This document shows, piece by piece, positions 14,397 to 18,604 of a DNA stretch of 41,077 bases. This stretch comes from Clostridiales bacterium. Its GTDB lineage: Bacteria > Bacillota > Clostridia > Christensenellales > Aristaeellaceae. The stretch is taken from the NCBI GenBank assembly GCA_015056145.1, contig SVGY01000021.1:1-41077 (forward strand), in the 5' to 3' direction. Under the pieces are notes generated by a model that saw only the letters and a list, made by a program, of their open reading frames with translations, did no database searches and was not told the origin of the DNA. Numbering within the stretch: the first letter of the stretch is position 1; each line of letters starts with the position of its first letter. The translations under genes and the position numbers were made by a program.

Positions 14397-14422
14397 GACC
14401 GGACACATAGTTGCGTCCGGTC
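14397..14422 (+). terminator. Terminator stem-loop stripped of its U-tract by repeat copy A
   Basis: GACCGGAC / GTCCGGTC stem, 8 nt after the VanY-like stop codon, preceded by AAAAA. It is followed directly by the 164-nt repeat instead of T residues. Identical to 14585-14610. Confidence 0.75.
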
Positions 14423-14585
14423 AGCTTGTGGAAAAACCTCATTCTTGTCAGTCAAAGCCGCAAATCTTGCACCTTCGGTGCTGGCTGTGCTTTCTTGAAA
14501 GTGCTGCGGCACAAGGAATGTGGGCTCTGCCCACACCCGGCAGGGGGATGATCCCCCTGCACCCTGCGCATTTTTTGACAGCCAG
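14422..14585 (+). repeat. 164-nt structured repeat, copy A
   Basis: Starts CAGCTTGTGGAAAAACC and ends TTGACAGCCAG. It differs from copy B at two bases only. Internal stems include GCACC/GGTGC, CTTTC/GAAAG, GTGC/GCAC, TGTGGGC/GCCCACA and AGGGGGAT/ATCCCCCT. The ends form an imperfect inverted repeat (CAGCTTGTC with GACAGCCAG, 6 of 9). It is flanked by a perfect 27-bp direct duplication (14396-14422 and 14584-14610) that contains the terminator hairpin. No coding capacity is credible. End assignment is uncertain by one or two bases because flank and element share them. Confidence 0.9.
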
Positions 14586-14615
14586 ACCGGACACATAGTT
14601 GCGTCCGGTCTTTTT
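14585..14615 (+). terminator. Duplicated terminator hairpin with intact U-tract (copy A)
   Basis: Second copy of the GACCGGAC / GTCCGGTC stem-loop, followed by TTTTT. It now terminates the VanY-like transcript 196 nt after its stop codon. Confidence 0.85.
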
Positions 14616-14666: not shown

Positions 14667-14689
14667 AGGACGTGCAATATGCACGTCCT
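14667..14689. terminator. Stem-loop abutting repeat copy C, probable thrC terminator
   Basis: AGGACGTGC / GCACGTCCT stem. On the minus strand it is followed by TTTTTGC and would terminate thrC. On the plus strand, repeat copy C begins right after it. Confidence 0.7.
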
Positions 14690-14853
14690 CAGCTTGTCGA
14701 AAAACCTCATTCTTGTCAGTCAAAGCCGCACATCCTGCACATTCGGTGCTGGCCGTACTTTCTTGAAAGTGCTGCGGCACAGGAAATGTAGGCGCTGCCC
14801 ACACCCGGCAGGGGGATGATCCCCCTGCACCCTGCGCATTTATTGATGGCCTG
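14690..14853 (+). repeat. 164-nt structured repeat, copy C (degenerate)
   Basis: Same length and order as copies A and B but with about 14 substitutions, several disrupting stems (TGTAGGC, GCACATTCGGTGC) and the right end (GATGGCCTG). It abuts the terminator stem 14667-14689 on its left. No hairpin duplicate is found on its right, so it looks older. Together with copy A it fills most of the 483-nt gap between the VanY-like gene and thrC. Confidence 0.85.
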
Positions 14854-18291: not shown

Positions 18292-18316
18292 GAGGATATT
18301 GCAGAGCGATATCCTT
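18292..18316 (+). terminator. Terminator stem-loop separated from its U-tract by repeat copy B
   Basis: AGGATAT / ATATCCT stem with a 9-nt loop, 24 nt after the stop codon. Only two T residues remain before the repeat begins. Perfect 25-bp duplicate at 18481-18505. Confidence 0.75.
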
Positions 18317-18480
18317 CAGCTTGTCGAAAAACCTCATTCTTGTCAGTCAAAGCCGCAAATCTTGCACCTTCGGTGCTCGCTGTGCTTTCTTGAAAGTGCT
18401 GCGGCACAAGGAATGTGGGCTCTGCCCACACCCGGCAGGGGGATGATCCCCCTGCACCCTGCGCATTTTTTGACAGCCAG
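18317..18480 (+). repeat. 164-nt structured repeat, copy B
   Basis: Starts CAGCTTGTCGAAAAACC and ends TTGACAGCCAG. It is flanked on both sides by an exact 25-bp duplication (18292-18316, 18481-18505), with the bases just outside differing, so the duplication length is unambiguous here. All internal stems are perfect. It is nearly identical to copy A, 3.7 kb away, which suggests recent mobility rather than old divergence. Confidence 0.9.
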
Positions 18481-18511
18481 GAGGATATTGCAGAGCGATA
18501 TCCTTTTTTTC
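18481..18511 (+). terminator. Duplicated terminator hairpin with U-tract (copy B)
   Basis: AGGATAT / ATATCCT stem followed by an uninterrupted T-run. It is the working terminator for the 163-residue membrane protein gene. Confidence 0.85.
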
Positions 18512-18536
18512 TTGCATCTCCCTTGCGCTTCTTTTG

Positions 18537-18563
18537 GTTCTTTTCTTCCAGGAAGAAAAGAAC
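18537..18563. repeat. Perfect 27-nt palindrome between convergent genes
   Basis: GTTCTTTTCTTCC, one central A, GGAAGAAAAGAAC: 13-bp arms without mismatch, within 18512-18604. On the minus strand it lies 42 nt after the GH67 stop. No strong T-run follows on either strand, so it is not a typical terminator, although it may help end the xylan operon. The rest of 18512-18604 holds nothing recognisable. Confidence 0.6.
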
Positions 18564-18604
18564 GCCCCCGGCAGGGTCGCCGAAGGCATTCAAAAAATTG
18601 TAAC

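Follow-up and report, generated by a model that had tools for sequence, protein, structure and literature searches.

A 164-bp repeat found in at least 56 copies at terminator-like hairpins of a Clostridiales genome is likely a MITE that is moved in trans by an IS1182-family transposase of one particular branch, an enzyme that is predicted to attach the element to each strand at the feet of the hairpin and that would recognize the shape of the DNA instead of its sequence. An IS1182-type MITE, with a target duplication whose length is set by the shape of the target, is the most likely reading of the repeat.

The window (the whole stretch of DNA analysed, contig SVGY01000021.1, 41,077 nucleotides) contains three copies of the repeat (Table 1). 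An exact 25-bp duplication about the copy at 18317, described in an earlier note made from the sequence by itself, is present as claimed. The duplicated hairpin reported at the 14422 copy is present as well, but the length of 27 bp given for it is too long, because those 27 bp overlap the element's own ends, and 24 bp is the best reading. The hairpins of these two copies are different hairpins. Neighboring frames in the window encode GH67-family, threonine-synthase-like and Rce1-like proteins, together with two proteins for which Pfam gave no match. A further repeat-like stretch, with at least seven matching places in the relative G016, is found at 18525-18588, beyond the element and its hairpins.

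Table 1. Copies of the repeat and their adjoining hairpins in the window.
Feature	Position	Strand	Remarks
164-bp element copy	18317..18480	+	ends CAGCTTGTCGAAAAAC... / ...TTTTTTGACAGCCAG; identical over 164 bp to 12 other genome copies
25-bp terminator-like hairpin, left copy of duplication at element 18317-18480	18292..18316	+	
25-bp hairpin, right copy, at element 18317-18480	18481..18505	+	followed by U-tract
Second 164-bp copy	14422..14585	+	98.8% identity
24-bp hairpin, left copy, at element 14422-14585	14398..14421	+	
24-bp hairpin, right copy, at element 14422-14585	14586..14609	+	followed by U-tract
Third copy, degenerate	14690..14853	+	92-93% identical; right end eroded
Left hairpin of third copy (14690-14853)	14667..14689	+	right duplicate absent

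BLAST of the repeat against its own 2.77-Mb assembly (40 of 74 first-look candidates were scored) gave at least 45 matches, of which 13 show 100% identity across 164 bp; the recurrence of the pattern is far beyond chance. From 92 own-genome sequences (the window, L001-L042 and L070-L118), 56 distinct copies were parsed with both ends, and the hairpin differs at nearly every one of these sites. A well-aligned flanking duplication (score of at least 15 with the element boundary fixed) accompanies 49 of the 56, and a matching hairpin pair is present in 52, comprising these 49 ungapped cases and three with indels; four copies are without a matching pair. The seven copies outside the 49 are L082 and L114 (one-base indels), L001 (several changes), the window copy at 14690 and L074 (one hairpin lost), and two copies in L105 (a mixed array). 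The earlier note had proposed extracting genomic copies with their flanks; many were recovered, 52/56 with a matching hairpin pair, and its central idea, a mobile element that goes to terminator-like stem-loops and duplicates them, is likely correct. The matching hairpins on both sides of the 52 also rule out stem-loop replacement of the IS1272 type. When the genome was searched for the element ends, the first 100 of 233 places included six outside known copies, of which four were further copies (two truncated) and two were chance occurrences; no autonomous element was seen among these 100 places. One copy (L116, at G000:C2:15922) is without its left half and is joined straight to a hairpin.

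The length of the duplication varies with the hairpin. It ranges from 18 to 39 bp among the 49 own-genome copies, so the fixed length of 25-27 bp first proposed does not hold generally, and from 17 to 40 bp across all elements (MITEs and IS1182-type elements together). The midpoint of the duplication coincides with the hairpin dyad axis in 46/49 copies and lies half a nucleotide off in 3/49, as determined by a search over 21 offsets in which pair scoring began two bases to the left of the duplication and moved inward. Watson-Crick pairs occur in 28 of the 49 just outside the duplication, in 31 at the outermost duplicated pair, and in 46-48 at each of the next six. The base composition around the cut is A-rich on the left and T-rich on the right. 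Predicted folds of the rebuilt empty sites often run past the duplication through A/T tails, and the correlation of folded length with duplication length is moderate (r = 0.61, 46 distinct sites), which together place the cut near the border of GC stem and AT tail and not always at the last possible pair. No 10.5-bp periodicity was detected in the duplication lengths of the 46 distinct sites (Rayleigh p about 0.54), and this counts against two bound sites on a straight duplex.

Insertion had been thought to occur always on the U-tract side, at the 3' foot of the stem. This proved not to be general: in a simple count of A and T, the U-tract was to the right of the element in 14/49 copies, to the left in 16/49, and on both sides or unclear in 19/49, giving 14 forward and 16 reverse insertions. 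As both orientations relative to the U-tract occur, it is the DNA dyad, rather than the transcript end, that seems to be read. Among 30 loci with 1.5-kb flanks, 23 have a called frame that points at the site and ends no more than 200 bp away, by a mechanical and crude frame calling that misses the window's own copy at 18317.

Empty orthologous sites with a single hairpin, also anticipated in the earlier note, are represented by one clean case in G016, which had the highest identity among the relatives in the searches run. For the copy C16:127218 both flanks align, the gap between the flanking matches is 143 bp in G016 vs 347 bp, and the G016 site has one hairpin, which follows the stop codon immediately. 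A single similar hairpin is present in G016 at C23:70904, where 12 relatives show hairpins of terminator type behind the same gene but no copy of the element; this comparison is weaker, being made by eye over the first 330 bases, and the hairpins are not alike among the relatives. L503, at the C23:70904 site, has another CAG-type end. Two other places were rejected as empty sites: C23:64320, where G016 is without the element but also without that hairpin, and C16:134081, the right flank of which is on another contig.

Tandem hairpin-element-hairpin-element arrays of two to four units occur at G000:C8:63994-64721 (four units), C8:155926-156468 and C8:167239-167592, and also at C6:30393-30749, C16:539089-539454 and C31:95373-95908. 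Sub-types can be mixed within one array (as in L031, with one copy 100% and another 98.8% identical), which suggests repeated insertion into the same hairpin. The arrays of two to four units suggest that a copied hairpin can be reused as a target; unequal exchange may be an alternative origin for them. In L105 (G000:C8:177000-179675) successive hairpins of the array differ, as if recombination had fused two insertions.

The terminal repeat of the element is CAG..TGTTGACAAA. The 164-bp element has the imperfect inverted ends CAGCTTGTCGAAAAA and CTGGCTGTCAAAAAA, and its right end in the own genome (CTGGCTGTCAAAAAATG) departs from the CAG...AAAG form. Ends in relatives are similar, about CAG..TGT.GA.AAA; those of L043 are CAGGCTGTTGATAAACCC and CAGGTTGTCGACAAAGTG, and diverged copies of the genus have ends like CAGACTGTTGATAAACCC and CAG..TGTCGACAAAGTG. 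The repeat has matches in 16 of 60 genomes and in 13 of the 17 in the genus (own genome included), with copy numbers in relatives that are lower bounds, at most 14 candidates per genome having been scored. Hairpin duplications of 21-31 bp accompany eleven copies, diverged and complete, in seven genomes of the genus, drawn from 40 scanned loci that in part overlap. The MITE ends in the genus are asymmetric, one being ...AAACC and the other ...AAAG, and this asymmetry recurs in L445 (see below) and, by eye, in 11 of 20 plasmid or viral IS elements. The repeat is thus MITE-like in being short (164 bp) and non-coding, with inverted ends and many copies with target duplication, and in having its ends in common with autonomous elements (L445, the 20 plasmid or viral elements, and L455). 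It encodes no IS1182 transposase of its own, since 164 bp leaves no room for one.

A scan of GTDB genomes with the end pattern CAGACTGTTGANAAACC gave at least 118 loci, whose record titles name Clostridia, Bacilli, Proteobacteria and other groups. Exact hits adjoin a hairpin (score of at least 8) in 48 of the 118 listed, vs 18/2360 random positions in the same loci; 70 of the 118 listed fall below this score. At 12 of the 118 listed loci there are short elements, 165-278 bp long, flanked by duplications (including Microbulbifer L362, Sutcliffiella L347 and Zoogloeaceae L378), and the hit L367 has a 14-bp repeat in copies 2.7 kb apart, without a hairpin. The search for full-length elements with the same ends, suggested at the outset, led to L445, a 1613-bp element that encodes a 465-residue transposase and is flanked by an exact 30-bp duplication holding a hairpin. 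The L445 transposase matches PF05598, PF13751 and PF01609, and the IS1182-family model NF033551 with 338.8 bits against a cut-off of 270.

Exact hairpin duplication (17-30 bp) is also found in 18 of 20 further elements with L445-like transposases, namely 19 plasmid elements chosen for diversity from the best 40 of 1528 matching records, and L534 from a viral contig; L539 is exact over 24 bp, and for L552 and L553 the exact lengths are by-eye readings. In L542 and L551 (Enterococcus) the left and right hairpins are unlike, perhaps owing to recombination between copies. Most of the plasmid records retrieved are annotated as IS1182 family, and some are without annotation. L534 is the one relative from a protein scan of viral contigs, while two end-pattern scans of such contigs (201 loci checked) gave hairpin-duplicated elements only at own-genome or genus loci; one hit was rejected as a repetitive coding stretch. 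Within the window's genus, genome G002 carries a 2603-bp insert (L455) in which an IS1182 frame with one stop lies between exact 40-bp hairpin copies, and which may be a nested insertion. IS1182 pieces in G001, G006 and G008 (L457-L461) have, by eye, CAG-type ends directly behind hairpins. The mobilizer of the own-genome MITE is not seen, because a search of the assembly (94% complete) with the IS1182 model gave 0 candidates. A DDE_Tnp_1 search of the 17 genus genomes found none in the own genome and nine places in its relatives, seven of which were recovered by the IS1182 model. The one match to rve transposases in the own genome appears by eye to be an IS3-like pair of frames.

IS1272 and TnSha1, members of the IS1182 family in staphylococci, are targeted to inverted repeats or to the hairpins of terminators regardless of sequence, and TnSha1 is found in both orientations at one terminator (PMC5678879, PMC4923244). 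IS1272 removes or replaces the stem-loop, with no target duplication in new insertions; duplication of the whole stem-loop by attack at the 5' feet is drawn as a possible pathway, and was not seen, in the available part of PMC5678879. The present elements are like these two in their IS1182-family transposase and hairpin targeting and unlike them in duplicating the whole hairpin, and our data match the prediction of that duplication pathway, a pattern from which we infer the cruciform step. The IS1182-branch transposase would mobilize the 164-bp MITE in trans and would read its target as an extruded cruciform or as a hairpin in single-stranded DNA. Cut points that are distant in sequence would become neighbors at the four-way junction; if the target brings them together, cuts 17-40 bp apart could be made by a DDE transposase dimer whose active sites have the ordinary spacing. 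The hairpin would end up copied on both sides if the strands are joined at its 5' feet and then repaired, and would be lost if they are joined at its 3' feet. With the element in place, A-tract and hairpin would make up the left side, and hairpin and U-tract the right, one terminator for each direction. As a complete terminator would be kept on each side, an insertion would do almost no harm and the target would be regenerated, which would explain the tandem arrays. On balance we incline to the wider view that one IS1182 branch and its MITEs attack the cruciform junction, so that a duplication of 17-40 bp is dictated by the hairpin and not by enzyme geometry, that a sister branch attacks the opposite feet and deletes the hairpin, and that terminators serve as a renewable safe haven across bacterial phyla.

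A cruciform would be unnecessary if the transposase read a palindromic duplex, in which a flexible spacer separates two inverted half-sites, and made a long staggered cut. Pairing beyond the duplication is indeed common, and the cut near the GC-stem/AT-tail border, A-rich to the left and T-rich to the right, could be a base-composition signal; yet the duplications span 17 to 40 bp with no 10.5-bp periodicity at the 46 MITE sites, and by eye the hairpins have no half-site sequence in common, so that we judge this reading unlikely, if deserving of attention. Conserved hairpins in the interior of the element (e.g., window 18350-18460) bring to mind a structured 164-nt RNA copied into terminators by a reverse transcriptase in trans, in the manner of a bacterial SINE or group IIC intron. 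In an alignment of 12 copies, taken from the own genome and seven others of the genus, 439/456 cells pair and 12/38 pairs are changed on both sides. The conservation could reflect RNA, single-stranded DNA or arm-to-arm correction, the last of which can also give compensatory change in a palindrome; moreover, insertion occurs in either orientation relative to the U-tract, and the inverted-repeat ends resemble those of transposase-coding elements with the same hairpin duplication. An RNA-templated origin is therefore highly improbable; where the earlier note offered a MITE or an RNA-templated element mobilized in trans, the MITE is probable and the RNA-templated option gained no support.

Slippage or recombination at an ancient unit of terminator and repeat, which would make the paired hairpins something other than a target duplication, could draw on the tandem arrays, such as that with four units. 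It is scarcely credible given that the hairpin differs at nearly every site, near-identical elements lie at unrelated sites, the orthologous empty site has a single hairpin, and sub-types can be mixed within arrays.

Any one transposase is usually taken to make target duplications of nearly constant length. For the repeat and its relatives, the length of the duplication changes with the target, across a twofold range and with the dyad in the middle, and with this relation the reading of cruciforms by a transposase in living cells becomes directly testable. Orphan terminator-flanked repeats are also tied to a named transposase branch, and a class of elements is recognized that goes to gene ends, likely leaving termination intact. 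Group IIC introns insert behind terminator stems, are not known to leave a target duplication, are orientation-bound, and contain a ribozyme. The present element is similarly sited and differs in its duplication, its two orientations and the absence of an Rfam match; a search of the window at gathering thresholds matched no Rfam family, and a group II ribozyme in the element was rejected on this ground. EFAR is reportedly (Venditti et al. 2007) a palindromic miniature element of about 170 bp that targets stem-loops of 24-37 bp and duplicates most of them, and we know of no transposase assigned to it. EFAR, of enterococci, is named as a MITE in the available part of PMC3733652; it differs from the present MITE in genus and is likened to it by description only. 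YPAL (RU-2) of Yersinia, about 168 bp, has duplications of 3-26 bp at targets that span or adjoin dyad symmetry (PMC2229807), and by description only it is like the present MITE in size and in variable duplications at dyads; the accessible portion of that paper does not state that the whole stem-loop is duplicated. Long duplications are shared with the IS1202 group, for which the available part of PMC10132070 gives target duplications of 16-28 bp, with targets not identified, and a TnsB-like transposase and TGT ends (described for Acinetobacter members). Its rve-type transposase and TGT ends contrast with the CAG ends seen here, and membership in IS1202 is ruled out because the conserved ends begin with CAG and the transposase of relatives is IS1182. 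We agree with the earlier note that neither IS1202 nor group IIC introns fit; the family missing from it was IS1182. In the main text of a review of prokaryotic MITEs (PMC10969869), as far as available, neither "IS1182" nor "EFAR" appears, and a limited search of open-licence literature found no report of whole-hairpin duplication by IS1182 elements. The kind is known, in MITEs at dyads and hairpin-targeting IS1182 elements; what is new is the branch-wide rule, the IS1182 link and the dyad-centered length law, although earlier print is possible.

ISfinder reportedly lists variable repeats for IS1182. Repeats of 4 bp are listed for the IS1182-family elements ISPse1 (PMC3281130) and ISCaa15 (PMC3196728), in the available parts of these papers, so that the hairpin-duplication rule would hold for a branch and not for the whole family. 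In a tree of 29 transposases (without L557, and without L544 and L553, the longest frames of which are shorter than 300 residues), ten of a longer type, a sister branch, separate from 19 others at 100/100. Eleven elements with the longer type were considered, two from the genus and nine from plasmids (from the best 30 of 2197 matching records), and ends that are GGGGCTGTC-like, GAGGCTGTC-like or CTGGGACA-like were found in nine; none were found for L560 and L454, and those of L554 are doubtful. Hairpin duplication was seen in none of the nine longer-type elements with ends found. In ISSau3 the inverted flanks pair over 11 bp, as expected if the element is sited within a stem.
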